Origin: Paraburkholderia flava
GTDB taxonomy: Bacteria; Pseudomonadota; Gammaproteobacteria; Burkholderiales; Burkholderiaceae
Length of the DNA: 64,000 nt
Direction of reading: 5' to 3'
Assembly: GCF_004359985.1 (NCBI RefSeq)
Contig: NZ_SMRO01000001.1
Span: 372,001 to 436,000 of the forward strand
Below the pieces are notes generated by a model. It saw nothing but the letters and a program-made list of their open reading frames with translations. It was not told where the DNA came from and did not search any database. The translations under genes were made by a program, and so were the position numbers. Below, piece after piece: positions 7,977 to 29,802 of this stretch; position 1 is the stretch's first letter; every line of letters starts with the position of its first letter.

Positions 7977-8138
7977 GGGACGACTCCATACTGCGTCCGA
8001 TGTGACGACGATGACGTCCCCACCATTTACTGCGCGACGTCGCGATAGACAACAGATGCGAGCGCGCTGCGATCACGCTCCGCATGCCCCACCTTCCTTG
8101 ACGCCATCATGCCGCACGCCTACACTCGCACGCACTCT
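7977..8138. other. Gene-free stretch before the cobalamin riboswitch
   Basis: This 162-bp stretch lies between the SDR hairpin and the riboswitch aptamer. It must hold the promoter of the cobW operon. No convincing ORF, repeat or box was recognised. Confidence 0.3.
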
Positions 8139-8372
8139 GGTGCTCGCGTGCGCGCCTCCCGCGCACGCAGTTAAACGGGAAACAGGGGGCTTTGCCGACA
8201 CGGCGAGGCCAACCTGTGCTGCCCCCGCAACGGTAAGCGAAGGCATCGCGCAAGCGATGCAAAGCCGGCTTCGCTGCAAGCGCATCGCGCGCCTGCAGTC
8301 GACCACTGTGCGAACGGAATGCGTTCGCGCGGGAAGGTGAAGCGGCGTTTTCGTCAGCCCGGATACCGGCCA
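8139..8372 (+). ncRNA. Cobalamin (adenosylcobalamin) riboswitch upstream of cobW
   Basis: The conserved blocks of the B12 aptamer occur in order on the plus strand: P1-side GGTGCTCGCGTG (8139-8150), TTAAACGGGAAAC (8171-8183), CTGCCCCCGCAACGGTAAG (about 8219-8237), a B12-box region with ACCACTG (8302-8308) and GGGAAGGTGA (8331-8340), and the closing GTCAGCCCGGATACCGGCC (8353-8371). The variable arm between 8240 and 8300 is long. Known members bind adenosylcobalamin and shut down translation or transcription of B12 genes. It lies 259 nt upstream of cobW and so is expected to repress cobW-cobN-chlID when B12 is plentiful. Confidence 0.92.
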
Positions 8373-8630
8373 GACATGATGGGTTCGCGCCGCGGGGATG
8401 CGGTGCTTGCCACGCCTGCAACGCGCTTTTTACACGCATTAGTGTGCTTTCGCGAGCCATAGTCGCGCCGTATCGTCCCCGTCCGCTGTGTTCAACGCAT
8501 CGCATCGTCGCGTCGCTGTCTGTTCGCGACGGGTGCTGCATGGCACATGCGACACGCGCGATCGTTACGCCGTGAAATCATGCGATGCATACACGTTGCC
8601 GGCGCCCTCACATGCACGAACGGAGCAGCA
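8373..8630 (+). promoter_or_regulatory. Riboswitch expression platform / cobW leader
   Basis: 258 nt between the aptamer and cobW with no convincing gene. It includes a CGCGCTTTTTACACGC run near 8424-8440. The cobW start is preceded by CGGAGCAGCA. Sequestration of that site is the most likely control, but no pairing was proven. Confidence 0.4.
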
Positions 8631-9719
8631 ATGCAGACACAGATGCGCAAGATCCCCGTCACGATCGTCACGGGCTTTCTCGGTAGCGGCAAGACGACGC
8701 TGTTGCGGCACATTCTTCAGCACGCGGACGGTCTGCGCATCGCAGTGATCGTCAACGAGTTCGGCGAACTCGGCATCGACGGCGAGATCCTGAAAGGCTG
8801 CGGCATCGGCTGCGACGAAGAGGGCCGCGAAACGGAAGGCCAGCTCTACGAACTCGCGAACGGTTGCCTGTGCTGCACCGTGCAGGAAGAATTTTTCCCG
8901 GTGATGGAGCGGCTCGTCGAGCGACGCGACCAGATCGATCACGTGCTGATCGAAACGTCGGGCCTCGCACTGCCGAAGCCGCTCGTGCAGGCGTTCAACT
9001 GGCCCGCGATCAAGAACAGCTTCACCGTCGACGCAGTCGTCACCGTGGTCGACGGTCCCGCCGCGGCGAGCGGCCAGTTCGCCGACAATCCGGTCGCCGT
9101 TGATGCACAGCGTCGCGACGACCCGAACCTCGATCACGAATCGCCGCTGCATGAACTGTTCGAAGACCAGTTGTCGTCGGCCGATCTGGTGATTCTCAAC
9201 AAGACCGATCTGCTCGACGACGCGCAACTCGCTGCCGTCGAAGCGCTCGTGCGCGAAGAAATTCCGCCGCAGGTGAAAGTGGTGCGTGCGCAGAACGGTC
9301 GGCTGGATCTGCATGCGCTGCTGGGTCTCGAAGCCGCGTCGGAGACGACGATTCATCTGCGGCACGATCATCACGGGTCGGCTGAAGACGCCGATCATCA
9401 CCACGACGAATTCGATTCGGTCGTCGTCGAATGCACGGTGTCGTCGCGCGAAGCGGCGATCGCCGCGCTGCAACGGCTCGTCGAAACACACACGATCTAT
9501 CGCGTGAAGGGTTTCGCCGCGCTGCCGGGTGCGCCGATGCGGCTCGTTGTGCAGGGTGTCGGGCGTCGCTTCGACAGCTACTTCGATCGCCGCTGGAAGC
9601 CGGAAGAAAACGCGAACGCAAAGAGCCGTTTCGTGCTGATCGGCGAAGACCTCGACCAGCCGACGTTGCAACGCGCGTTCGACGACGCGCTTGCCCGCAC
9701 GCACGCGCACGAGGCCTGA
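8631..9719 (+). CDS. cobW: Cobalamin biosynthesis GTPase CobW
   Basis: A 362-aa G3E-family GTPase/metallochaperone. The Walker A motif GFLGSGKT is at residues 15-22, the metal-binding CxCC motif is C79-L-C81-C82, NKTD (guanine specificity) lies at about residue 189, and a His-rich loop (HDHH...DHHHDEF) precedes the C-terminal CobW domain. CobW proteins are thought to deliver Co(II) to the cobaltochelatase. ATG 8631 is chosen because GGAG lies just upstream and the family begins here; an upstream in-frame extension to 8547 has no support. cobN follows after 6 nt, so the two are probably co-transcribed under the riboswitch. Confidence 0.95.
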   Translation: MQTQMRKIPVTIVTGFLGSGKTTLLRHILQHADGLRIAVIVNEFGELGIDGEILKGCGIGCDEEGRETEGQLYELANGCLCCTVQEEFFPVMERLVERRDQIDHVLIETSGLALPKPLVQAFNWPAIKNSFTVDAVVTVVDGPAAASGQFADNPVAVDAQRRDDPNLDHESPLHELFEDQLSSADLVILNKTDLLDDAQLAAVEALVREEIPPQVKVVRAQNGRLDLHALLGLEAASETTIHLRHDHHGSAEDADHHHDEFDSVVVECTVSSREAAIAALQRLVETHTIYRVKGFAALPGAPMRLVVQGVGRRFDSYFDRRWKPEENANAKSRFVLIGEDLDQPTLQRAFDDALARTHAHEA

Positions 9720-9725
9720 CCCGCG

Positions 9726-12700
9726 ATGCATCTGCTGCGCACCACGCCGGGCGGTTTCGTCGACGATACAGCAGGCGTCGTCCGGATCGACCAGAAGCCC
9801 GCGGACATCGTGGTGCTCAGTTCCGCCGACACGACGTTATCGCTGCTCGCGAGCGTCGTCACGCGACTCGAACCCGGTTTCCCGAGCGTGCGGCTCGCGA
9901 ACGTCACGTGGCTGCGGCAACCGGCGTCGGTCGATTTCTATCTCGACGACGTGCTGCAGCATGCGCGCGTGGTCGTCGTCGATCATCTCGGCGGCGAAGC
10001 GTACTGGCCGTACGGAATCGAGCAGGTCGTCGCGCTCGCGGCGCGTCGCAACCAGGTGCTCGCGATGTTTTCCGGCGATCTGCAGGAAGACCCGAACCTG
10101 CTCGCGAAAAGCACCGCCGACGCGGCGTTATGCGAGCACCTGTGGCGCTATCTGCGCGAAGGTGGTCCGGGCAACGCCGAGTCGTTCATGCGTAGGATCG
10201 CGTGGCAGGTGTTCGGTTGGGGCCGCGAGCCGGCGCCGCCGCAGCCGTTGCCTGCCGCCGCGCTGTATCACCCGCAACGCGACACGCCCACACTCGACGA
10301 CTGGCAAACCCGCTGGCGTGCGAACGCGCCCGTCACGGCGATCCTGTTCTACCGCGCGCATCTGCAGGCCGCGAACACGGCAGTATTCGACGCGCTGATC
10401 GATGCGCTCGAAGCACGCGGAATGAATCCGCTGCCGATCGCAATCACGTCGCTGAAAGACGCGGTCAGCCGCGACGTCGTGCAGCGGCTGTGCGAGCAGC
10501 ACAACGTATCGCTGGTGCTGAACACGACCGCATTCGCCGCGAGCGCAATCGACGATCCCGAACCGCTCGCGCTGGCCGGCGACGCGCCGGTGCTGCAGGT
10601 GATCCTGAGCGGCGGCAATCGCGAAGACTGGGTGAAGGACAACCAGGGCCTGCATTCGCGCGACATCGCGATGCATGTCGCGTTGCCCGAAGTAGACGGC
10701 CGCATCATCACGCGTGCGATCAGTTTCAAGGGGCTCGCGTACCGCTGTCCGCATACCGAAGTCGACGTGGTCCGCTATCAGCCGGATCTGGAGCGCGTCG
10801 CGTTCGTCGCGGAACTGAGCCGTCGCTGGTGCCGGCTGCGTCAGTTGCCGAACGCGGACAAACGGCTCGCGCTGATCCTCGCGAACTATCCGCAAAGCGA
10901 AGGACGCATCGGCAACGGTGTCGGGCTGGACACGCCGGCGTCCGTCGTGGGCATCCTCGCGATGCTGCGCGCCGAGGGCTATCGCATCGACGACGTGCCC
11001 GCCGACGGTGCCGAACTGATGCAGCGGCTCGTGCAGGGCGTGACCAACGATCCCGCCGTGCGCGATCTGCGGCCCGCGCTGCAAAGTCTCGCGCTCTCAG
11101 ACTACCTTGAATATTTCACGCGCCTGCCCGAGCCGGCGCGTAGCGCGCTGAATGCACGTTGGGGGCCGCCCGAGCAAGACCCGACGCTGCGACGCAGCCG
11201 CTTCATGATCGCGGGCTGGCGCTGCGGCAACGTGTTCGTCGGCATCCAGCCATCGCGTTCGCGCGACGACAACAACTACGCGAGCTACCACGACGCCGAT
11301 CTCGTACCGCCGCATGCGTACCTCGCGTTCTATGTGTGGCTGCGCGAGCGTTTCGGCATCGACGCGGTTGTGCACGTCGGCAAGCACGGCAATCTGGAAT
11401 GGCTGCCGGGCAAGAGCGTTGCGTTGAGCGACGCATGCTGGCCCGATCTCGTGCTCGGACCGCTGCCGCATCTATACCCGTTCATCGTCAACGATCCGGG
11501 CGAGGGCAGTCAGGCGAAGCGGCGCGCGCAGGCGGTGATCATCGATCATCTGATGCCGCCGCTCACGCGCGCAGAAAACTATGGTCCGTTGCAGGATCTC
11601 GAACGACAGGTCGACGAATACTACGACGCGTTGATGGTCGACTCGCGCCGCGCGAAGCTGCTGCGCAAAACGATTCTCGCGACGATTGTCGAGCATCGGT
11701 TGCACGAAGAACTGAGTCTCGCGGAGCCGGTCGGTCAGGACGCGGAAGACGCGGTGTTGACGCGTGTCGATGCATGGCTGTGCGAGTTGAAGGAAGCGCA
11801 GATCCGCGATGGGCTGCATACGTTCGGCCATTCGCCGGAGGGCGTGCAGCGCCGCGACACGCTGCTCGCGCTGGGACGTTTTCCAGTCGGCGATGGGCAG
11901 GGCGCGAATGCAGGGCTGATCGATGCAATCGCGAAGGATCTCGGGATCGATCATCTGTTCGATCCGCTGACGGTGGACTGGTCCGCGCTGTGGGAAGGAC
12001 CGCGTCCTGCATTGCTTGAGGCAGTCGATACCGCACCGTGGCGTCATGTCGGCGATGCGCGCGAACGTCTGGAAATGCTCGCGGCGAAGCTCGTCGAACC
12101 GCTGTGCGTGGAGGGAATGCCCGCACCGGCTGAAGGCATCGCTTTGTCGCACGCGGAACGCGTACTCGCGCGACTGCGCGACCAGGTGCTGCCCGCACTC
12201 GACGCATGCGGCCGCGAAGAAATGCGTCAGTTGCGACGCGGACTCGAAGGACGTTTCGTGCCGCCGGGTCCGAGCGGTTCGCCGTCGCGTGGCCGACCGG
12301 ACGTACTACCGACCGGTCGCAATTTCTATTCGGTCGATACGCGCGCGGTGCCGACGCAGGCCGCGTGGGCGCTCGGCCTGAAGTCCGCGCAGCAGTTGAT
12401 CGAACGACATCTGCAGGAGCATGGTGACTACCCGCGCGCGATCGGCCTGTCCGTATGGGGCACCGCAACGATGCGCACCGGCGGCGACGATATCGCACAA
12501 GCGCTTGCGTTGATCGGCGTGCGGCCGAAATGGGCACCGGGCAGTCATCGCGTGACCGACTTCGAGATCATGCCGATCGAGGCCTTCGACCGGCCACGCA
12601 TCGACGTGACGCTGCGCGTGTCGGGCTTTTTCCGCGATGCGTTCGCGAACGTGATGCATCTGTTCGACGCAGCCGTGCAGGCAGTCGCCGAACTCGACGA

Positions 12701-13523
12701 GCCGCCCGAACTGAATCCGATCCGCGCGCGCGTGCAGGCGGATCGCGATGCAATGATCGAGCGCGGCATCGCACCCGACGAAGCGCGTCGGCGTGCAGGC
12801 TGGCGCGTGTTCAGTTCGCGACCCGGTTCGTATGGAGCAGGGTTGCAGCAGATGATCGATTCGCGTCAATGGCAAACCGATGCCGACCTCGCTGGCGCCT
12901 ATCACGCGTGGGGCAGTTACGCGTATGCGCAGAAAAGCGCCGGCGACGAAGCACGCGATGCATTCGGCACACGCCTCGCGGCGCTCGACGTCGTATTGCA
13001 GAACCAGGACAACCGCGAACACGACGTGCTCGATTCGAACGACTACTACCAGTTCCAGGGCGGCATGACCGCAGCGGTCCGGCATCTGTCGGGCACGCAG
13101 CCCCATGTCTATCACGCGGATCACAGCAACCCCGCCGCGCCGCGCATCCGCACGCTGCACGAGGAGATCGCGCGCGTGATCCGTTCGCGTGTCGTGAATC
13201 CGAAGTGGCTCGACGGCGTGAAGCGGCACGGCTACAAAGGTGCGGCGGAAATCGCCGCAACCGTCGACTATCTGTACGGCTACGACGCGACCGCGCGGGT
13301 CGTCGCGGACCATCAGTACGCGCTCGTCGCCGATGCTTACGTGAACGATGCCGGCACCCGCGAATTCATGCAGCAGCACAACCCGCATGCGCTGCACGCG
13401 ATCTGCGAGCGGCTGCTCGAAGCGATGCAGCGCGGTCTATGGCAAACGCCGGGCGACTATCGCGAACAGATCGAAACGCATCTGCTCGCGAGCGAACAGC
13501 ATATCGAAGGAACACGGTCATGA
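9726..13523 (+). CDS. cobN: Cobaltochelatase large subunit CobN
   Basis: A 1265-aa protein of the CobN/BchH family, the usual length for this subunit. It binds hydrogenobyrinic acid a,c-diamide and inserts Co(II) with energy from AAA+ partners. Characteristic segments include VVHVGKHGNLEWLPGK (about residues 549-564), GRNFYSVDTRAVPT in the C-terminal half, and SVWGTATMRTGGDDIAQALALIG. The stop overlaps the start of the ChlI/ChlD gene (ATGA), so chelatase subunits are translationally coupled. This marks a late-cobalt-insertion (aerobic-type) corrin pathway. Confidence 0.96.
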   Translation: MHLLRTTPGGFVDDTAGVVRIDQKPADIVVLSSADTTLSLLASVVTRLEPGFPSVRLANVTWLRQPASVDFYLDDVLQHARVVVVDHLGGEAYWPYGIEQVVALAARRNQVLAMFSGDLQEDPNLLAKSTADAALCEHLWRYLREGGPGNAESFMRRIAWQVFGWGREPAPPQPLPAAALYHPQRDTPTLDDWQTRWRANAPVTAILFYRAHLQAANTAVFDALIDALEARGMNPLPIAITSLKDAVSRDVVQRLCEQHNVSLVLNTTAFAASAIDDPEPLALAGDAPVLQVILSGGNREDWVKDNQGLHSRDIAMHVALPEVDGRIITRAISFKGLAYRCPHTEVDVVRYQPDLERVAFVAELSRRWCRLRQLPNADKRLALILANYPQSEGRIGNGVGLDTPASVVGILAMLRAEGYRIDDVPADGAELMQRLVQGVTNDPAVRDLRPALQSLALSDYLEYFTRLPEPARSALNARWGPPEQDPTLRRSRFMIAGWRCGNVFVGIQPSRSRDDNNYASYHDADLVPPHAYLAFYVWLRERFGIDAVVHVGKHGNLEWLPGKSVALSDACWPDLVLGPLPHLYPFIVNDPGEGSQAKRRAQAVIIDHLMPPLTRAENYGPLQDLERQVDEYYDALMVDSRRAKLLRKTILATIVEHRLHEELSLAEPVGQDAEDAVLTRVDAWLCELKEAQIRDGLHTFGHSPEGVQRRDTLLALGRFPVGDGQGANAGLIDAIAKDLGIDHLFDPLTVDWSALWEGPRPALLEAVDTAPWRHVGDARERLEMLAAKLVEPLCVEGMPAPAEGIALSHAERVLARLRDQVLPALDACGREEMRQLRRGLEGRFVPPGPSGSPSRGRPDVLPTGRNFYSVDTRAVPTQAAWALGLKSAQQLIERHLQEHGDYPRAIGLSVWGTATMRTGGDDIAQALALIGVRPKWAPGSHRVTDFEIMPIEAFDRPRIDVTLRVSGFFRDAFANVMHLFDAAVQAVAELDEPPELNPIRARVQADRDAMIERGIAPDEARRRAGWRVFSSRPGSYGAGLQQMIDSRQWQTDADLAGAYHAWGSYAYAQKSAGDEARDAFGTRLAALDVVLQNQDNREHDVLDSNDYYQFQGGMTAAVRHLSGTQPHVYHADHSNPAAPRIRTLHEEIARVIRSRVVNPKWLDGVKRHGYKGAAEIAATVDYLYGYDATARVVADHQYALVADAYVNDAGTREFMQQHNPHALHAICERLLEAMQRGLWQTPGDYREQIETHLLASEQHIEGTRS

Positions 13524-14560
13524 ATGCGTCTTTTCCGGCTTTTCCATTCAGTGCGTTGATCGGTCAGGAAGCGTTGCAACAGGCGTTGCTGATTGCGGCA
13601 GTCGATCCGGGCATCGGTGGTGTGTTGATCAGCGGACCGCGCGGCACCGCGAAAACGACCGCTGCACGCGCGCTCGCCGAGCTGTTGCCAGAAGGCCGAT
13701 TCGTCACGCTGCCGCTCGGCGCAAGCGAGGAACGCCTGATCGGTACGCTCGATCTCGAGAGCGTGCTGCGCGACGGCGCGGTGAAGTTTTCACCGGGGCT
13801 GCTCGCGCTTGCGCATCGCGGCGTGCTGTATGTCGATGAAATTAATCTCTTGCCCGACACGCTCGTCGACGCGCTGCTCGATGCAGCCGCGAGCGGCACG
13901 AACACGGTCGAGCGCGATGGCGTGTCGCACAGTCACGATGCGCGTTTCGTGCTGGTCGGCACGATGAATCCGGAAGAGGGCGAATTAAGGCCGCAACTGC
14001 TCGACCGTTTCGGTCTGATGGTGGCGCTCGAAAACTGTTTCGACGCGACGCAGCGGCAGCGGATCGTCAAGGCGCGGCTCGCGTTCGATGCGAACCCCGA
14101 CGCATTTCGTCGTGACCACGCGGCGCAGCAGGCTGCACTCGCGCAGCGCATTCGTGCGGCACGCGATGTGTTGCCCACGCTCGTGTTCGACGATGCAGTG
14201 CACGAGCAGGTCAGCGCGTGCTGTATCGAAGCAGCGGTTGATGGTTTGCGCGCAGACCTCGTGATGCTGCGTGCAGCACGTGCGCTCGCGGCGCTCGAAG
14301 CAGCGGAAGCGGTGACGCTTGCGCACGTCGAGCGTGTCGCGGATGCGGTGCTGCTGCATCGACGTCATGCGCACGATGAACACATGCAGTCCGCTTCGGA
14401 GCGTTCGTCTCGCGACGACGGCCAGAGCCACGCACCGTCGTCTTCAGGTCAGAACAACATGCAGTCGCAAAACGACAGCGACTGGGGCTACCTGCCAGCC
14501 GAGCCCACAGGCCTCGCGCACGTCAAAAGCGTCGTCCCGCTCGCCGTAAAAAAAACCTGA
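13520..14560 (+). CDS. chlI: ChlI-type AAA+ subunit of cobaltochelatase (zero-frame product)
   Basis: A 346-aa AAA+ ATPase of the magnesium/cobalt chelatase I family (CobS-like role). The Walker A motif GPRGTAKT is at residues 39-46, Walker B VLYVDEINLL is near 108-117, and the sensor region GTMNPEEGELRPQLLDRFG follows. After a charged/Gln-rich linker the frame ends at TGA 14558-14560, immediately after eight A residues (14548-14555). The ATG overlaps the cobN stop (ATGA). Ribosomes that slip -1 on the A tract continue into the VWA domain, so this is probably the short product of a dual-coding chlD gene. Confidence 0.92.
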   Translation: MNASFPAFPFSALIGQEALQQALLIAAVDPGIGGVLISGPRGTAKTTAARALAELLPEGRFVTLPLGASEERLIGTLDLESVLRDGAVKFSPGLLALAHRGVLYVDEINLLPDTLVDALLDAAASGTNTVERDGVSHSHDARFVLVGTMNPEEGELRPQLLDRFGLMVALENCFDATQRQRIVKARLAFDANPDAFRRDHAAQQAALAQRIRAARDVLPTLVFDDAVHEQVSACCIEAAVDGLRADLVMLRAARALAALEAAEAVTLAHVERVADAVLLHRRHAHDEHMQSASERSSRDDGQSHAPSSSGQNNMQSQNDSDWGYLPAEPTGLAHVKSVVPLAVKKT

Positions 14561-15225
14561 GCCATCGGAACGGCGCTGCCGCTGACGGACCCAGCGGCTT
14601 CCGATGGCTGCAACGCGCACGCACAGCGACACGCGATGGCGCGCCGGGAACGCGCATCGCATGGCCCGCGACGCTCATCGCAAAACGGCACACGCCGCTG
14701 CGCGCCGAACATCTGCGCTTCGTCTCGGCCGCATCGCAAGGCGGCGAACTGCATTGCTTCGCACTCGACTGCTCGGCATCGATGCTGGCCGGCGAACAGC
14801 TTGCGCTCGCGAAGGGCTTGCTCGTTGCGCTGTTCGATCGTGTCGCACGCGAACGAGGTGAGGCCGCGCTCGTATGCTTCGGCGGAATGGGAGCGGATGT
14901 CCGCTTTGGGCCGGCTACGCCTCGGTGGTGGAACGAGCGCTGGTTGCGCCCGGTCGGCGGTGCGGGCGGTACACCGCTCGCGTTGGGTGTGCAGCGTGCG
15001 GCGACCTTGCTCGAACGTGCCGCACGGCGCAGACCTGCGCAGCAACGCTGGCTGTGGGTGCTGTCGGATGGACGCAGCCGCGACCGGCCGCAGCGGCCTG
15101 CGGGAGCGGATCGCGTCGTGTTCGTCGATTTCGAACGGGCGGCGGTGCGGCTTGGGCGGTGTGCGCTGCTGGCTCGGGAGTGGAGTGCCGAGTATTGCGT
15201 GCCGGACGACTTGATCGGGGCTTGA
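13520..15225 (+). CDS. chlD: ChlD-type AAA+/VWA cobaltochelatase subunit made by -1 frameshift
   Basis: The predicted long product reads 13520-14554 in the zero frame and resumes at 14554 (AAC) in the -1 frame, giving about 568 aa. The -1 part holds a VWA domain: the MIDAS motif D417-C-S-A-S421 is encoded at 14767-14781, followed by GGAGGTPLALGVQ and WLWVLSDGRSRD. No ATG, GTG or TTG exists in this frame between the upstream stop (near 14384) and ATG 14782. That ATG lies after the MIDAS, so independent translation would lose the metal site. This argues strongly for frameshift expression. The product would act as the CobT-like partner of ChlI and CobN. Co-ordinates span the joint; there is no intron. 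Confidence 0.8.
14548..14608 (+). promoter_or_regulatory. Programmed -1 ribosomal frameshift signal (A8 slip site plus stem-loop)
   Basis: The slip site is GTA-AAA-AAA-ACC-TGA: eight A residues at 14548-14555 give an A-AAA-AAA heptamer in the right phase. Six nucleotides later a stem begins: GCCATCGGAA (14561-14570) pairs perfectly with TTCCGATGGC (14599-14608). An inner stem GCCGCTG (14578-14584) pairs with CAGCGGC (14592-14598) around a 7-nt loop, leaving a 7-nt bulge on the 5' side. The zero-frame stop lies in the spacer, between slip site and stem. This is the canonical geometry of -1 frameshift signals. Programmed frameshifting in chlD genes is described in the literature; here it is inferred from sequence. 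Confidence 0.82.
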
Positions 15226-22238: not shown

Positions 22239-22239
22239 T
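22212..22239. repeat. 7-bp tandem repeat at the 3' end of cbiG/cobJ
   Basis: Four tandem copies of CAGGCGC, the last ending in T, at 22212-22239. The last base of the array is the last base of the cobJ stop codon. Such arrays change copy number easily but here lie outside the reading frame. Confidence 0.7.
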
Positions 22240-23930
22240 CACGGGTACGAACGCGGCGTATACACCCACTCGCCACCATCGCCGCGCGCAAACCCTCTCG
22301 TCGTCGTCGACCCGACGATCACCATCGTCCGCATATCGACGTCGCTGCTGCGCAGCTCGCCGAGCGTGGTCGTCGTGAGCGTGCCACCCGGCCTGCCGAT
22401 ATCGCGTCCCAGCACGACACGCGTCGCGGGCGTCCGGTACTCGCGGACGATATCGAGCGCGGTATCCAGTTGCCACGGCCGCGCACGCGACACCGGGTTG
22501 TAGAACGCCATCACCAGATCGGCCTGCGCTGCGTGTCTAAGCCGCGTCTCGATGATCGACCACGGCTTCAGATTGTCCGACAGCGACAGCACGCAGAAAT
22601 CGTGGCCTAGCGGCGCACCGGCTTGCGCAGCGGTCGCCATGGCAGCCGATACGCCCGGCACCATGCGCAACTCGACTTGTGCCCAACGGGGATCGTCGGA
22701 TGTATCGAGCGCTTCGAGCACCGCCGCCGCCATCGCAAACACGCCAGGGTCGCCCGACGATACGACGACCGCCGCGCGTCCTTCCGTCGCGAGTTCGAAA
22801 GCGTGGCGTGCGCGCTGCAATTCCTCGCGATTGTCGGTCGCGTGTACGCGCTGGTTGTCGCGGAACGGGCCAGCCATGTTCACGTACGTCGCGTAGCCGA
22901 GGATATCGGTGGCGTCTATGAGTGCGTCGCGCGCGGCGGGCACGAGTAGATCGGCGGAGCCTGGGCCCAGGCCGATCACGGTCACGCTGCCGCGTGGGCG
23001 GCCGATCGTCGCGATGTCTAACGGCGCGTCGGCGATCGCGAGCGTGACCGACGAGGTTGCCTCGTGCAGTACGTTGTGCGGAACAGTCAGCGCGGCTGCA
23101 AGCAATTGGTCCGCGTCGGCATCGAGGTCGATAAAACGCAGCGGCACGGCGAGTGCCTGTGCGGCATCGGCAAGCGCCGTATCGGTGCAACGTGCAGCGG
23201 GCGCGAGCAGAGCGGCGAGCGCAGCATGCGCAACGTGGTGTGCTTGCAGTGCATCGAGCACCAGCTGTTCGACGTCGTCTCTAATACCACCGATCGCCGC
23301 AACCACACTCCGCGGATGAATCAACAAAGTATCCGCCGACGCATCGACGAACGGCGTCACGCGAATCGCCCGCTGCGCAGAAGCATCGCGCGGCAGCGCC
23401 GCATCGTCGAGCCACGGCGCGTCGCCTTCGATGCGCGTCGTCTCGCCTGCCAGCAGATCGGAGACGAAGCGCTTGCCGTGCGCGAGATCCGCGAGTGCAT
23501 AACCTTCCGGCGGATTCAGCACACAGGTGCCGAAACGCAGTTCGCCGCTCGTCGTGATCGCGGGTGCGATGCCGAGCGCGGCCGCGATATCGCGTGCGAG
23601 CACGTTGACACCCGCGAGCCCGCCGAGCAGCGGCACGACCGCGCTGCCGTCTTCCGCGACCGCGAGCACCGGCGGCTCCGCGCCCTTGTTCGCGAGCAGC
23701 GGCGCGACGCAGCGGATCACGATGCCGGCCGCGCACAACGCGACGATCGGCGTGCCGCGCGCGTACAGCTCGCGCAGATGCGCGGCGAGTTCCGTGTAGC
23801 CGACGTCCGCTTCGACACGGCCCGCGAGTCCATGCACCTGCGAACCCGGACAGCATGCCTGCACACGACGCGCGACATCGAGCGCACCGACGCCGAGAAT
23901 CACGATCGCCGGCGGCATCATCCCTGCCAT
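22239..23930 (-). CDS. cobJ: CbiG-like/CobJ fusion: precorrin-3B C17-methyltransferase
   Basis: A 563-aa two-part protein. Residues about 1-310 resemble CbiG: the N-terminal half ([19 protein letters not shown]...ITTSGE) and a CobE/CbiG-C-like half ([11 protein letters not shown]...). The usual SGHxGGAN block reads GGLAGVN and the CobE Cys is absent, so the hydrolase part may be degenerate. Residues about 315-563 are a tetrapyrrole methylase of the CobJ/CbiH type ([42 protein letters not shown]) that methylates C17 and drives ring contraction. It is the last gene of cobG-cobH-cobI-cobJ and overlaps cobI by 13 nt. Confidence 0.93.
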
Positions 23931-24652
23931 TTTTGCCCCGGCACGACGAGTAGCGAGAAGTAGGGCGACGCCATCGGATCGACGTCCGCGAGCGGCACGA
24001 TGCGCTGGTTTGCCATCGTCGCGCGCTCGACGTACAGCGCGCGTTTCGCGAGCCCGAGTTCGTCGAGTACGCGTCTTACCTTGTCGAAATTGCGACCGAG
24101 CTTCATCACGACGGCTGCGTCCGCATCCGCGAGACGGCGCCGCAATTCGGCTTCGGGCAATACACCCGACAGCACTGCAAGCGACTGGTTGCGATAAACG
24201 AGCGGCGCGCCGAGTACGGCGGCGCCGCCGAGCATCGAGCAGACGCCGGGCACGACTTCGGTTTCGAAACGCGCGGCGAGCCGGTCGTGCAGATACATAT
24301 ACGAGCCATAGAAAAACGGATCGCCTTCGCAGATCACCGCGACGTCGCGACCCGCGTCGAGATGCCCGGCGACGATCGCGGCAGCAGTGTCGTAGAAGTC
24401 GGCGATGATCGCTTCATACGATAGCGGCGGTTCGAGCGCTTCGGTCGTCACCGGATAGACGAGCGGCAGGTGCGTCTGTGCATCGTCGAGATGCGCCTCG
24501 ACGATCCCGAACGCGTTACCTTTTTTGCCCTTCGCGACGAAATACGCGACGACAGGTGCCGCTTTCAGCAGTCGCACGGCTTTGAGCGTCAGCAGTTCGG
24601 GGTCGCCTGGACCAACGCCGATGCCGAACAGGCGTCCCTTACCCGTACTCAT
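23918..24652 (-). CDS. cobI: Precorrin-2 C20-methyltransferase CobI
   Basis: A 244-aa tetrapyrrole methylase. The N-terminal [20 protein letters not shown] and the [19 protein letters not shown] and VVPGVCSML segments are typical of CobI/CbiL. It transfers methyl from SAM to C20 of precorrin-2. ATG 24652 overlaps the cobH stop by 4 nt (ATGA); longer in-frame extensions overlap cobH and are rejected. The 3' end overlaps cobJ by 13 nt, so translation is coupled on both sides. Confidence 0.95.
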
Positions 24653-25275
24653 TCGACCTCCGACGCAAGCGCGTTCACCGCTGCGGCAACCATCGCGCTG
24701 CCGCCGCGTCGTCCCGCGACGATCACCCACGGCACGTCATAACCACCTGACGCGAGCAGCGCCTTCGATTCCGCCGCACCGACGAAGCCGACCGCAAAAC
24801 CAAGAATCAACGCGGGTCGCGGTGCGCCCGCATCGAGCAGATCGAGCAGATGGAACAGCGCGGTCGGCGCATTGCCGATCGCGACGACGCTGCCTTCGAG
24901 ATGCGGTCGCCACAGCTCGACCGCCACAGCCGAGCGCGTGTTGCCGAACTGCTTCGCAAGGTCGGGCACGGTTGCATCGCCGAGCGTGCACAGCACCGGG
25001 TTATTCGCCGGCAGTCGCGCACGCGTGATGCCTTCGGCGACCATTCGCGCATCGCAGAGAATCGGCGCGCCGGACGCAAGCGCATTGCGGCCCGCGTGTC
25101 CTGCGCCCTCGGAAAAACGCAGATCGTCGACGATGTCGATCATGCCGCACGCGTGGATCACGCGGACCGCGAGCTTTTCGAGGTCGGGCGGCACGCGCGA
25201 CAGATCGGCTTCCGCGCGGATCGTCGCAAACGACTGGCGATAGATCTGCTGGCCGTCGCGAAGGTAGTCATGCAT
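24649..25275 (-). CDS. cobH: Precorrin-8X methylmutase CobH
   Basis: A 208-aa CobH/CbiC protein that moves the methyl group from C11 to C12, giving hydrogenobyrinate. Diagnostic segments are [18 protein letters not shown] (with the catalytic His), [21 protein letters not shown] and the C-terminal [18 protein letters not shown]...[20 protein letters not shown] region. It overlaps cobG by 8 nt upstream and cobI by 4 nt downstream. Confidence 0.96.
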
Positions 25276-26662
25276 CGGTGTGGCTCCGGGACGGTCGCGC
25301 GAGTAGCGCGGCGGCCTGTTCGATAGTCAGGTGGTGCGCGATGGGGATGCCGAAGCGGTCGGCGCCGCCCACGCTCGCGCGTTGATACAGGTCATAGCAG
25401 CCGGGCGCGGTTGCGAGCAGCGTGTGCGGTGCGCAATGCGCGGCCGCGCAGGAGCGCGGGCAGCCGCTTAGGTGGACGGCATCGTCTGCGCTCGTGTCGG
25501 GAAGAAGGGTGGCGAGATGCAATGCGTCGGCTTTTGTGTCGGCGGCGCTTTTCGTGCAACCGGTCGAACCGGCGCATGCGATCAGCCGCACGTAGGGATG
25601 CGACGGCTCGCACGCGAGGCCGAGTGCGCGCAGGCTATCGAGTACGGCGGGCACTGCATCGTCGGCGACGTCGGGGATGAGCACGCTTTGCCACGGTGTG
25701 ACATGTAGCGTTCCGTTGCCGTGTTCTGATACGAGCGCGGCCAGCTTAACCAGCGTGCACGTATCGAGCCGCCCGAGCGCCGGCTGCCCGCCGACGTGAG
25801 ACAGCTTTGAATCGCGTTGCCGATGAGCGCCGACGCGCAACGACGGCGATGCTGGTGCACGGGTCCATGCGGCGACAGCGGGATCGTCGTGCAAAGCAAT
25901 GTCTGCTCGTTCGGCCGCGCGTTGCAATAACGCGGAGGCGTCGTAGCTGGCGAGCACGTCGCGCATTCGCGTGTCGTCAGAGCCGCTGACGTCCAGGAAC
26001 GTATGCAGCAACGCTTCGACGAAAACGGGTAGATCGGCAGCGGCCACTGACGCAAGTGCGCTGCCCGGCACCGACAACGGACAGCCCGCAAGACCCACCG
26101 CGTACCGCGCACGATCCGCATCGCCGACTGCCGAATCCATTGCCGAAAACCACACATCGTGCGGATGATCGACCGCCATCAAGCGTTCACCGCCGTCGAG
26201 CATCAGCGCGAATTTCGGCGACAACGCCGCGAAGCGCGGCTCGCGTTGCAGTCGCGAAAGCAACGCAGCGGCGAGTGGCCGCGTGTCGTCGAGCGCCTGC
26301 GGATCGCGGCCTGCGAGCGGGCTCGTCATCACGTTGCGACGTTCATCGGCGTGCGCGTTGTTCGGATCCTGCGTACCGGGGCCGGTCTGCATCAGCGCCG
26401 CAACGAGCGAGGTCTCGTGACCCGCCCGCACGCCGCGCAACTGCAGGTTCGCGCGATTGGTCAACTCGACGATACCAGCCGTGTGCAGATCGGCGGCCTG
26501 TGCGACCGCGACCGCATCGCGCGCATGCAGTTCGCCGCCCGGCAGCTTGATCCGGCAGAGCCCGCCGTCGCGTGCGGCAACGATGCGCGCAAGCGACGGA
26601 CACGCCGACGCGCGCGGCGCAGACCGTGCATCGACAGCAGCAGGGGACAAAACTCGATTCAA
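25268..26662 (-). CDS. cobG: Precorrin-3B synthase CobG
   Basis: A 464-aa protein of the sulfite/nitrite reductase-like superfamily. N-terminal ferredoxin-like half (DGGLCRIKLPGG, ELTNRANLQLRGV) and a C-terminal half with the Fe4S4 cysteines in IACAGSTGCTK and LSGCPRSCAAAHC. In known pathways CobG uses O2 to hydroxylate C20 and form the ring-A lactone, so this is a marker of the aerobic route. It is the first gene of the minus-strand cob operon, directly behind the second cobalamin riboswitch. Confidence 0.94.
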   Translation of the reverse strand: MNRVLSPAAVDARSAPRASACPSLARIVAARDGGLCRIKLPGGELHARDAVAVAQAADLHTAGIVELTNRANLQLRGVRAGHETSLVAALMQTGPGTQDPNNAHADERRNVMTSPLAGRDPQALDDTRPLAAALLSRLQREPRFAALSPKFALMLDGGERLMAVDHPHDVWFSAMDSAVGDADRARYAVGLAGCPLSVPGSALASVAAADLPVFVEALLHTFLDVSGSDDTRMRDVLASYDASALLQRAAERADIALHDDPAVAAWTRAPASPSLRVGAHRQRDSKLSHVGGQPALGRLDTCTLVKLAALVSEHGNGTLHVTPWQSVLIPDVADDAVPAVLDSLRALGLACEPSHPYVRLIACAGSTGCTKSAADTKADALHLATLLPDTSADDAVHLSGCPRSCAAAHCAPHTLLATAPGCYDLYQRASVGGADRFGIPIAHHLTIEQAAALLARPSRSHTDA

Positions 26663-26763
26663 GCGATTACCGGTTTAGCGTCGCGCGACGGCCCGGTGTT
26701 GCCTCGACAGGAAGCAACGCGGCATCGGTACACCCCGCCCGATGATGGCTGGCACGAACAGTG
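26663..26763 (-). promoter_or_regulatory. Riboswitch expression platform / cobG leader
   Basis: About 100 nt between the aptamer and cobG. On the minus strand it includes GTGTACCGATGCCGCG and a GAGGCAACACCGGGCC segment able to pair with nearby GC-rich sequence. No clear T-tract terminator is seen, so translational control of cobG is more likely. Confidence 0.4.
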
Positions 26764-26917
26764 TTGCCGGCAGGTTTCCTGGCTTGCAGGTCGTGGTCCG
26801 CGCGTGCCTTCCCGAATGAATCAGTGGCGTGTGGAGCGCGGACTCGCTGCATACAGTTGCGGGGGCAGCCACAGTGTCGCTGTGTTCCCTTTTAGGCCCC
26901 GAAGGGCACCGGCGAGG
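26764..26917 (-). ncRNA. Cobalamin riboswitch upstream of cobG
   Basis: Read on the minus strand, the blocks occur in order: GGTGCCCTTCGGGGCC, TAAAAGGGAACAC (26882-26894), CTGCCCCCGCAAC (26856-26868), GCCACTGATTCATTCGGGAAGG (as separate GCCACTG and GGGAAGG boxes, 26807-26828), and AAGCCAGGAAACCTGCCGGC (26766-26784 region). This is a close match to the B12 aptamer, closer than the copy at 8139. It should repress cobG-cobH-cobI-cobJ in response to adenosylcobalamin. Confidence 0.95.
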
Positions 26918-27015
26918 CTGTATTATGCCTTCTTTCTCCGGCGCTTCGATCGCATGCGCAGCACGCATGCGTCGGCACGCAGCCGGAACTGAAACGACAT
27001 GATGAGGATGGCGGG

Positions 27016-28260
27016 ATGCCTGCGTGGCTGACCATAGTAGGCATCGGCGAAGATGGCTTCGCGGGATTGGGCCGCACCGCGCGGCGCGCGCTGCTCGATG
27101 CGTCGGTGGTAATCGGCGGCGAACGGCATCTTGCGATGCTGCCCGCACGCTTGCACGCACGACGTGAACCGTGGCCGCATCCGTTCGATCTTGCACCGCT
27201 GCTCGCGCGGCGTCCCGAACCGGTCTGCGTGCTGGCGAGCGGCGACCCGATGCTGTTCGGCGTCGGCGCGACGCTTGCCCGCGCGCTGCCCGCCGACGAA
27301 CTGCACGTGCTGCCCGCGCCGTCGTCGCTGTCGCTCGCGGCGGCCCGCGCGGGCTGGCCGCTGCAGGACGTGACGATGCTGTCGCTGGTGGGCCGGCCGA
27401 TTGCGGCGCTGCATGCGCATCTGCACGACGGTGCACGTCTGCTGGTGCTCGGTGGCGATGCGACGGCGCCGTCGGCGCTCGCTACGCTGCTCGTCGAACG
27501 CGGCTTCGGCGCGACGCGGATGATCGTCTTCGAACATCTGGGCGGACCGCTCGAACACCGCATCGATACGCGTGCTGACGCATGGCACGCCGATCCTTCG
27601 GCATGGTCCCCGGCCGCGCTGAATCTCGTCGCACTCGACTGCCGCGCGGGTCTCGACGCGCAACCGCTGCCGCTCACACCCGGACTCCCCGACGAAGCGT
27701 TCGCCAACGACGGCCAGTTGACGAAGCGCGATGTCCGCGCCATTGCGCTCGCGCATCTCGCGCCGCTTCCTGGCGAACTGCTGTGGGACGTCGGTGCGGG
27801 CGCGGGCTCGATCGGTATCGAATGGATGCGATCGCATCGCACGTGTCGCGCGATTGCGATCGAAGCGCATCCGCAGCGTCAGGCGTTCATCGCGCAGAAC
27901 CGCGATGCGCTCGGTGTACCTGGTTTGCAACTGGTCGCCGGCACCGCGCCCGATGCGCTCGCTTCACTGCCGGTGCCTGACGCGATTTTTATCGGCGGTG
28001 GCGTGACCGCGTCCGGTGTGCTCGACACATGCTGGACCGCGCTGCGTCCCGGCGGCCGGCTCGTTGCGAACGCGGTGACGGTGCAGGGCGAAGCGAAGCT
28101 GGTCGCGTGGCGCGAACGCCATGGCGGCACGTTGACGCGCATCGCGCTGTCGACCGCACAACCGCTCGGCGGCTTCGACGCATGGCGTCCCGCGTTGCCG
28201 GTCACGTTGCTCGATTGCCGCAAGCCTGTCGACACGGCAGCACCGTCAGGCGATCGATGA
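27016..28260 (+). CDS. cobL: Precorrin-6Y C5,15-methyltransferase (decarboxylating) CobL
   Basis: A 414-aa fusion of CbiE (about residues 1-210; [32 protein letters not shown]) and CbiT (about 230-405; [35 protein letters not shown] as SAM-binding motif I). It methylates C5 and C15 and decarboxylates the ring-C acetate. The gene is first in the plus-strand set cobL-cobK-cobM and is divergent from the cobG riboswitch. No separate riboswitch is visible in the 98 bp upstream. The stop overlaps the cobK ATG. Confidence 0.95.
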
Positions 28261-28979
28261 TGCGCATCCTGCTGCTCGGCGGCACCGGCGACGCGCTGCG
28301 GATCGCGCGCACTCTGAAGACACCGCACGTGTACAGCCTCGCAGGACTCGGCAAGGTGCCGGACGACCTTGCATGCACGGTGCGTGTAGGCGGCTTCGGT
28401 GGTGTCGACGGTCTCGCTCGCTATCTGGTCGACGAGCGGATCGGTCTGCTGGTCGACGCGACGCATCCTTACGCCGCGCGCATCAGCGCTAACGCGGCCG
28501 CAGCGAGCCGCATCGCGAATGTGCGGTACTGGGCGCTGCATCGCGCCGCATGGCAACCGCAACCCGGCGACGACTGGCGTTTCGCCGACGACTGGCAAGG
28601 CCTCGTCGCGTTGCTCGCACCGTTTTCCCGACCACTCTTCACGCTGGGCCGCGAACCGCTCGCGCATCTCGGCGACATTCCGTCGCATCAGCAGTGGCTG
28701 GTCCGCTGTCTCGATGCACATCCGGGCACGCAACGTGCTCATGTACTCGACGCTCGCGGTCCTTTCACGCACGACGGCGAACGCGCATTGTTCGACGCGC
28801 ATGCAATCGATGTCGTTATCAGCAAGAATAGCGGCGGCAGCGCGACCGTTGCAAAGCTCGACGTCGCGCGCGAGCGGGGTGTGCCGGTGTTGATGCTGCG
28901 GCGTCCCTCACTCCCCGCCGCGGACCGTGCATTCGACAACGACGCCGCGCTGCTGCACGCATTGCACGATTCCGGTTGA
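28257..28979 (+). CDS. cobK: Precorrin-6A reductase CobK
   Basis: A 240-aa (239 if the second of two tandem ATG codons is used) NADPH-dependent reductase. N-terminal [17 protein letters not shown], central [18 protein letters not shown] and [34 protein letters not shown] are typical of CobK/CbiJ. The tandem ATGATG overlaps the cobL TGA, so translation is coupled. It is followed by a 70-nt gap before cobM. Confidence 0.94.
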
Positions 28980-29049
28980 CGCGCGTTCGCGCGCGTCGTC
29001 GTCCGGGCTGCCTGCGTGTCCATTCATCCTTCTCATTACGGAGCATGGC

Positions 29050-29802
29050 ATGACGGTGTTTTTTGTCGGCGCGGGGCCGGGCGACCCCGAACTGATCACG
29101 GTGAAAGGGCAGCGTCTGGTACGACGCTGTCCGGTGATTCTCTATGCAGGGTCGCTGGTGCCGGCCGAGGTACTCGAAGGCAACACGGCTGAACGCATCG
29201 TGAACACCGCCGACCTCGATCTCGACGAGATCATCGCGCTGCTCGCGCAGGCGGACCGCGACGGACACGACGTCGCGCGCGTCCATTCGGGCGATCCGTC
29301 GTTGTATGGAGCGATCGGCGAACAGATGCGGCGGCTTGCCGAACTCGGCATCGCATACGAGATCGTGCCGGGCGTCACCGCGACCGCGGCGTGCGCCGCC
29401 GCACTCGGCTGCGAACTGACGTTGCCGGACATTTCGCAGACGGTGATCCTCACGCGTTTCGCCAGCAAGACGACGATGCCTCCGGGCGAACAGCTCGGCG
29501 ATCTCGCGCGGCATCGTGCGACGATGGCGATTCACCTCGGCGTGCGCCATCTTGCGACGATCGTCGATGAATTGATGCCGCACTACGGTGCAACGTGCCC
29601 CGTGGCGATCGTGTATCGCGCGAGCTGGCCCGACGAGGCGCGCGTGATGGGCACGCTCGCGGACATCGTCGCGAAGGTGCGTGCGACCGACATCGAACGG
29701 ACTGCGCTGATTCTGGTGGGACGCGTGCTGGGTGCGGAGACGTTTGGCGAATCGACGCTGTACGCGAAGGAGGGCACGCGCGGAGGCGACACGCGGCACT
29801 AG
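29050..29802 (+). CDS. cobM: Precorrin-4 C11-methyltransferase CobM
   Basis: A 250-aa tetrapyrrole methylase of the CobM/CbiF type: VFFVGAGPGDPELITVKGQRL at the N-terminus, VILYAGSLVP, RVHSGDPSLYGAIGEQM, and TRFASKTTMPPGE. It methylates C11 of precorrin-4. ATG 29050 is preceded by GGAG; an upstream in-frame extension to 28927 lies within cobK and is rejected. It ends the plus-strand cob operon before a strong hairpin. Confidence 0.95.
   Translation: MTVFFVGAGPGDPELITVKGQRLVRRCPVILYAGSLVPAEVLEGNTAERIVNTADLDLDEIIALLAQADRDGHDVARVHSGDPSLYGAIGEQMRRLAELGIAYEIVPGVTATAACAAALGCELTLPDISQTVILTRFASKTTMPPGEQLGDLARHRATMAIHLGVRHLATIVDELMPHYGATCPVAIVYRASWPDEARVMGTLADIVAKVRATDIERTALILVGRVLGAETFGESTLYAKEGTRGGDTRH

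Follow-up and report, generated by a model that had tools for sequence, protein, structure and literature searches.

How can a gene whose reading frame is closed by an internal stop codon provide two subunits of a chelatase? The question is raised by chlD of Paraburkholderia flava (13520–15225, plus strand), the last gene of a riboswitch–cobW–cobN cluster. It lies in a 64-kb stretch of a 6.97-Mb genome (G000:C1:372001-436000, where G000 is the genome of the stretch itself). This whole stretch is called the window below, and its features are collected in Table 1. Two overlapping frames are observed, the 0 frame with an AAA+ part and the -1 frame with a VWA part, each matching known protein families, and at their junction there are a slip heptamer, a stop codon and a hairpin conserved with compensatory changes. 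Judging from the sequence, it is very likely that chlD is decoded in two ways by -1 ribosomal frameshifting, giving a short ChlI-like and a long ChlD-like subunit, because all 190 loci with this arrangement share the heptamer, its phase and its spacing from the stop, and the stem shows compensatory changes. Frameshifting in chlD is already known from other bacteria, as the original prediction had it and as reports of 2013, 2016 and 2022 state (PMC3711429, PMC5009743, PMC9227772), and the window gene adds a member of this kind.

The 0 frame ends with GTA AAA AAA ACC TGA. It had been predicted to close right after a run of eight As (14548–14555) in the A-AAA-AAA phase, and this is confirmed, with the refinement that the eighth A lies outside the heptamer, being the first base of the codon ACC. 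That codon is CGC in 108 and GCC in 31 of the 155 distinct loci defined below. No other run of A or T in the window is as long, and there is one of seven. The -1 frame is open at 14380–15225 and, also as predicted, carries a VWA part with the metal ion-dependent adhesion site (MIDAS) ahead of the first start codon; counted from 14554, it encodes 223 residues.

In total, 203 loci were classified: the window locus, 80 loci of named genomes (the best 80 among 120 relatives, chosen by the VWA part alone), 16 from a class-wide profile search (the best 16 of 29, L091–L106), eight from an order-wide search (8 of 29 new loci, L121–L128, the remainder being weak matches), 58 from family searches and 40 from fetched stretches of family genomes. 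The family loci read come from 103 of the 207 genomes with a match to the VWA part. Six loci (L093–L097 and L106) are unclassifiable. In the other 197, the VWA part is in the -1 frame in 190 and continuous in frame in five (L091, L092, L098, L101, L105), and L100 is near-fused, that is, in frame past the MIDAS with a frame break later; L188, taken up below, falls outside these groups. The named and unnamed collections overlap in genomes, and the 190 loci are not independent; dropping those identical over a 150-nucleotide stretch or with an N near the site leaves 155 distinct loci. In the named genomes, the -1 arrangement is seen in Paraburkholderia, Burkholderia, Trinickia, Andreprevotia and Silvimonas, among others, and the closest relatives by the VWA part, among the best 80 of 120, are Paraburkholderia species. 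Open frames of 600–700 residues seen for some -1 parts are no fusions, being open by chance where they were read (L127, L128 and others).

The in-phase heptamer is A_AAA_AAA in 186 of the 190 loci and A_AAA_AAG in four (L102, L103, L104, L170), and the stop follows at exactly one codon in all of them. The first A of the heptamer is the third base of nine different codons (GCA, GTA, CCA, CTA, TCA, ACA, ATA, GAA, AAA), and it is A in 155 of the 155 distinct loci, compared to 8.2% A at the third positions of that frame. Similarly, the first lysine codon of the heptamer is AAA in all 155, compared to 43% AAA among the lysine codons of the frame. Counting from the first A, there are seven As in 150 loci, six As and then a G in four, and eight As in the window only; the run reaches further upstream in three of the 155. 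With the run fixed at seven or A6G in 154 loci, transcriptional slippage is disfavoured, and the length constraint together with the A_AAA_AAG variants fits ribosomal tandem slippage better than polymerase slippage. A -1-frame stop leaves at most 12 nucleotides open upstream of the heptamer in 14 of the 155 loci, and just three nucleotides in 11; this stop and that of the 0 frame thus confine the shift to about 13 nucleotides in these 11 loci. No A-type heptamer in phase is present in the linker of any of the six loci that are fused or near-fused. Purifying selection after the junction was considered as independent evidence of coding and rejected: third-position substitutions are highest there, yet this is given little weight, since the stop and the stem constrain the same bases. 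The window is the sole locus with eight As from the first base of the heptamer, and its species may, by analogy, produce more of the long product, because shifting in published cassettes rose with the length of the A run: in E. coli, it was 63% with 11 As, 40% with 9 and 10% with 7 (PMC3711429).

The predicted hairpin is separated from the heptamer by six nucleotides (14555–14560), and both elements proposed for it originally, the 10-bp stem and the 7-bp inner stem, are present. The fold of 14555–14613 has a z-score of -4.84, and none of 200 shuffles is equally stable. A caveat is that the minimum-energy fold in the window (-33.2 kcal/mol) pairs the inner part otherwise than the drawn fold (-29.4 kcal/mol); the consensus, however, has the inner stem as drawn. 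In a search for the longest perfect stem whose 5' arm begins between 12 and 18 nucleotides from the first A, the start is at 14 in 111 of the 155 distinct loci. The mean length of the perfect stem in these loci is 10.2 bp, compared to 5.9 bp in dinucleotide shuffles and 6.4 bp elsewhere in the genes. No Rfam family is found at its threshold over the site of the heptamer and hairpin.

Compensatory changes were counted in an alignment of 134 distinct sequences, unfitted to the structure, and in an alignment of 54 diverse sequences that excludes near-duplicates, L099, L102–L104 and L204; the counts come from related sequences and do not represent independent events. In the larger alignment, the column pair 11/71 is UA in 96 sequences, CG in 27 and UG in 11, and is never unpaired. 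The number of cells changed on both sides is 205, with the shuffled mean of 66 and maximum of 89. In the 54 sequences it is 98, compared to 37 upon shuffling (0/500), and sliding by one to three columns makes it drop to 14–43; here 88.3% of the outer-stem cells and 71.5% of the inner-stem cells are paired. Thus the alignment of homologues, suggested originally as a check, retains the heptamer, the -1 phase and, with compensatory changes, the stem.

An RNA model of 66 positions comprising the heptamer and the hairpin (R1) was used to search 398 family genomes under stricter filters at E 0.01. It has matches in 209 of them, namely in all 207 genomes with a protein match to the VWA part (E 1e-12), in G1032 and in G304. 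Comparison by eye at 20 places puts the start of the R1 match 9 nucleotides ahead of the protein match. As the training sequences come largely from the searched genomes, the sensitivity of R1 is partly built in, whereas the scarcity of other matches is not. Hence, in this sample of one family, the arrangement is kept wherever the VWA part is found, and R1 is a compact covarying RNA marker for chlD genes that annotation would likely split. The match in G304 (E 0.007) is probably due to chance. The one in G1032 belongs to L260 (G1032:C382:19200-21900, reverse strand), where the AAA+ part, the heptamer and the stem are intact and the VWA match ends after about 49 residues; downstream there are other open reading frames, AbrB-like and YhaV-like by eye only. 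This may be a natural loss of the function of the long product, in a genome that is fragmented and has 6% contamination.

The 0-frame part matches ChlI, or 38-kDa subunit, sequences from PDB with E from 9.6e-81 to 2e-78. A profile built from 19 sequences of the -1 part finds the 60-kDa subunit of magnesium chelatase (2x31, E 5.8e-16). The Pfam VWA_2 score of the -1 part, 26.2 bits, is slightly below the curated cut-off of 27, but the assignment is supported by the 2x31 match and by the predicted structure, a moderately confident VWA fold (mean predicted local distance difference test score, pLDDT, of 74.3). In this structure, strand 1 corresponds to residues 65–71 of the -1 part and the MIDAS to residues 72–76. 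The fold search in PDB with the -1 part yields general VWA folds among the matches listed, the magnesium chelatase chain coming from the sequence profile instead. The 38- and 60-kDa chains of the magnesium chelatase structures go by the names BchI and BchD. The MIDAS, DCSAS in the window, is DGSAS, rather than DCSAS or DCSGS, in L199, L200, L201 and L203, all from genus g226, and DCSHS in L064 and L176.

Both halves have TIGR02442 (Cob-chelat-sub, putative cobaltochelatase, 641 positions) as the best NCBIfam match, with 392.1 and 61.5 bits; as they were scanned apart, these scores are not comparable with the full-protein curated score of 779.45 bits. Scanned in the same way, the 0-frame part does not reach the equivalog scores of magnesium chelatase (329.6 of 466.95 for TIGR02030 and 230.1 of 499.55 for TIGR02031), and the -1 part alone has 45.1 bits with TIGR02031 (curated score 499.55). 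No match of either half to the CobS and CobT families, TIGR01650 and TIGR01651, is found at E 0.001. By these family matches, the gene is of the ChlI/ChlD type, without a CobS/CobT-type match, in line with the ChlI-like and ChlD-like cobaltochelatase subunits that had been proposed. Residues 39–47 and 102–109 of the 0-frame part, which we take to be Walker A and Walker B, lie within the shared AAA+ part; Walker A is present in 154 and Walker B in all 155 distinct loci, and both are present in six of the six fused or near-fused relatives.

The VWA part could also be a separate protein started in the -1 frame, by internal initiation or stop–start coupling. The original prediction dismissed this because no start codon precedes the MIDAS. 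In the window that is so, as the first ATG, GTG or TTG of the open -1 frame encodes residue 77 of the -1 part, and a start there would drop predicted strand 1 and the MIDAS. As a general argument it was rejected, since it is true of one locus in 155, the window: each of the other 154 has a start before the MIDAS, situated between the heptamer and the MIDAS in 152 and only upstream of the heptamer in two, and a Shine-Dalgarno-like 4-mer precedes such a start in 21 of the 155. Independent starts in related strains were to count against the prediction, yet the ones found are scattered among the loci, and 427 of 577 lie beyond W37, a residue kept in 155 of 155. Moreover, separate initiation leaves the heptamer and the stem unexplained, and we regard it as very improbable; at ATG, GTG or TTG it would be ruled out by the sequence in the window only, and in the relatives it is unlikely. 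The codon CTG at 14557, which overlaps the TGA of the 0 frame (CTGA), is a weak candidate for stop–start coupling in the window. Another explanation is that polymerase adds one A on the run of eight, so that transcripts with nine As encode the long protein directly. Runs of more than seven As are indeed cited as sites of transcriptional slippage (PMC3711429). However, as the run lengths given above demonstrate, such a run, counted from the first A, is kept in none of the other 154 loci. Further, ribosomes are known to slip on in-phase A_AAA_AAG, on which polymerase slips poorly, and polymerase slippage has no expected need for a covarying stem six nucleotides downstream, which makes this explanation improbable. 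Finally, a homopolymer beside a frame change is a classic site of sequencing errors, and the true run might be nine As in a continuous gene, or the gene might be a pseudogene; this is hardly credible, given that the same arrangement is observed in 155 distinct loci with conserved VWA residues and that the family loci read include no in-frame fusion at this point.

We thus return to -1 ribosomal frameshifting. Ribosomes in the 0 frame would halt at the TGA and release a ChlI-like AAA+ subunit of 346 residues, and in the cell some fraction of them, whatever its size, would slip back by one base on the heptamer, likely aided by the predicted hairpin, and continue to 15225, producing a ChlD-like AAA+/VWA subunit. 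If so, both chains would have an active-looking ATPase, as the Walker motifs are in the shared part. The short and long chains may assemble together and drive the insertion of cobalt by CobN in the aerobic B12 pathway. CobN is present in 20 of 20 genomes checked; the genome of the window has one CobN and one ChlI-type locus, the latter in two pieces. Of the claim that one gene makes two subunits, frameshifting is supported by the 190 loci and the covariation of the stem, whereas the need for both products, and so for two separate subunits, is an inference and less firm than originally written.

Several observations weigh against this reading. Some of them concern the signal. The structure tested for covariation was drawn from the window itself, and by the weakest measure, the number of pairs changed on both sides, the 54 sequences have 12 compared to 9.6 in shuffled alignments (31/500). 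A Shine-Dalgarno-like stimulator upstream is not conserved, the 4-mer being present in 16 of the 155 loci. The single off-pattern family locus read, L188 (G923), carries C_AAA_AAA in place of A_AAA_AAR and its frame is broken further upstream, which could reflect either a misassembly or a signal in decay. The run of eight As could add some transcriptional slippage, and RNA, protein or reporter measurements for the window species were not found in the literature searched. Other observations concern the partners. Elsewhere in the same genome there is a weak pair of a CobS-like AAA+ and a CobT-like VWA gene (G000:C1:1540219-1542826, L085 and L086), with scores far under the cut-offs (127.5 of 558.55 and 102.6 of 759.05, respectively). 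A clear CobS-like gene occurs in two of 13 frameshift genomes, G429 and G404, with scores of 530 and 502 bits that lie slightly below the cut-off of 558.55. Five of the six relatives with a fused or near-fused gene have CobN but, at E 1e-15, neither ChlI nor CobS as a separate gene; these are G026, with a 49-position ChlI fragment, G028, which is 93% complete, G272, G193 and G056.

The expectation that fused relatives carry a separate ChlI or CobS thus clearly holds in one of six only, G051, where CobS is above the cut-off. The opposite expectation, that a separate small subunit is always lacking in frameshift genomes, was rejected because of the strong CobS-like matches in G429 and G404; of the other frameshift genomes, three of the 13 have a weak CobS-like match (that of the window and, with similar scores, G526 and G390) and eight have none. 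Given this mixed distribution, the frameshift and the lack of a small subunit are not strictly linked; a single long chain may suffice in the five fused relatives, and the weak CobS/CobT-like pair makes another partner possible in the window species. Hence frameshifting might be real, with the long product alone as the working subunit and the short one as a by-product or regulator. These five relatives, as well as Walker A and B in the shared part, are consistent with such a role, but none of the 207 family genomes that have the VWA part lacks the signal, and the literature describes class I chelatases as assemblies in which I and D, or S and T, are distinct chains (PMC7689651); we consider it rather unlikely. 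Somewhat less doubtful, and still tentative, is the idea that the ribosome alone sets the number of VWA-arm chains in a class I cobaltochelatase motor built from two chains sharing one active AAA+ domain, by means of a covarying RNA element. On this idea, the fused relatives that lack any small-subunit gene would show that a single AAA+/VWA protein with CobN can be the whole enzyme, and the frameshift would tune the composition of the motor and not supply a missing part. The contrast with the fused relatives makes the need for separate small and medium cobaltochelatase subunits testable. The window is a clean natural case for a test, since translation from an ATG, GTG or TTG of its -1 frame could not provide the VWA domain.

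In the 2013 study, one -1 cluster comprises 23 frameshifted genes for magnesium chelatase, and the six genera they come from include Burkholderia (PMC3711429, Antonov et al.). Frameshifted chlD (fs-chlD) was then described across phyla and proposed as the source of both cobaltochelatase subunits (PMC9227772, Kuznetsov et al. 2022); Antonov 2020 is cited as further work on fs-chlD. Stage 8 in the scheme of Kuznetsov et al. combines cobN with the lack of a small-subunit gene of its own; the genome of the window has one CobN and the one ChlI-type locus in two pieces, beside the CobS/CobT-like pair far under the cut-offs. The window gene shares with these genes the -1 overlap of the small-subunit (AAA+) and second (VWA) frames, the in-phase A_AAA_AAR under purifying selection, the RNA structure downstream and the proposed role in cobaltochelatase. 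The 2016 review reports purifying selection on A_AAA_AAR and a structure whose sequence is not strongly conserved (PMC5009743, Atkins et al.); in the single family compared here, by contrast, the stem shows strong conservation and compensatory changes. The window differs from other fs-chlD by the run of eight As and the lack of ATG, GTG or TTG before the MIDAS in the -1 frame, both known here from sequence alone. What is added to this earlier work is a covarying signal, present in all sampled family genomes that have the VWA part, and a set of relatives at odds with a strict two-subunit requirement. No paper on covariation of the chlD signal in this family was found by titles and abstracts, most subscription papers being outside the search.

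Compared to magnesium chelatase (PDB 2x31, 1g8p, 8osf), the 0-frame part corresponds to the 38-kDa and the -1 part to the 60-kDa subunit, but there are two genes there and one here, and the partner here is CobN. The D subunit of magnesium chelatase is described as having no ATPase activity (PMC7689651), unlike both predicted products here, which share an AAA+ part with intact Walker motifs. The likeness to CobN–CobS–CobT cobaltochelatase is in CobN, CobW and the aerobic-pathway CobG, all in the window; the differences are the ChlI/ChlD type of the gene and the scores of the CobS/CobT-like pair. In dnaX, shifting yields the short product, while in the window gene the shifted product would be the long one. 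The A-rich heptamer with a downstream hairpin resembles -1 frameshifting of the dnaX type (PMC3711429), which has a Shine-Dalgarno-like stimulator, whereas no such conserved upstream element is seen here.

Table 1. Features of the chlD locus and its neighbourhood in the window.
Feature	Position	Strand	Details
A_AAA_AAA slip heptamer	14548..14554	+	X_XXY_YYZ phase; inside the A8 run 14548-14555
0-frame TGA stop	14558..14560	+	one codon past the heptamer
Predicted stimulatory hairpin	14561..14608	+	outer 10-bp perfect stem 14561-14570/14599-14608, inner 7-bp stem 14578-14584/14592-14598
0-frame open reading frame, AAA+ ChlI-like part	13520..14560	+	predicted short product of 346 residues; ATG 13520 to TGA 14558-14560
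-1-frame part of the predicted long product	14554..15225	+	linker and VWA domain; frame open 14380-15225
MIDAS motif DCSAS	14767..14781	+	directly after predicted VWA strand 1
First ATG/GTG/TTG of the open -1 frame	14782..14784	+	ATG, residue 77 of the -1 part, past strand 1 and the MIDAS
Cobalamin riboswitch	8121..8388	+	Rfam RF00174, 57.9 bits, gathering score 31.5; upstream of cobW-cobN-chlD
cobW, predicted cobalt chaperone GTPase	8547..9719	+	TIGR02475 489.3 bits, cut-off 332.1
cobN, large cobaltochelatase subunit	9726..13523	+	TIGR02257 1612 bits, cut-off 822
Second cobalamin riboswitch	26752-26928	-	106.5 bits

The cluster is preceded by the B12 riboswitch that had been predicted over it, and the stop codon of cobN shares the bases ATGA (13520–13523) with the start codon of chlD. 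The second riboswitch is surrounded by a block of aerobic B12 genes (22239–29802). By family matches, the minus-strand genes under it are CobG, CobH, CobI and CobJ with a CbiG-like N-terminal part, and those nearby on the plus strand are CobL (CbiE and CbiT parts), CobK and CobM. Given CobG of the aerobic pathway and the cobW, cobN and B12 neighbours, the chelatase would be expected to use cobalt in the aerobic B12 route.

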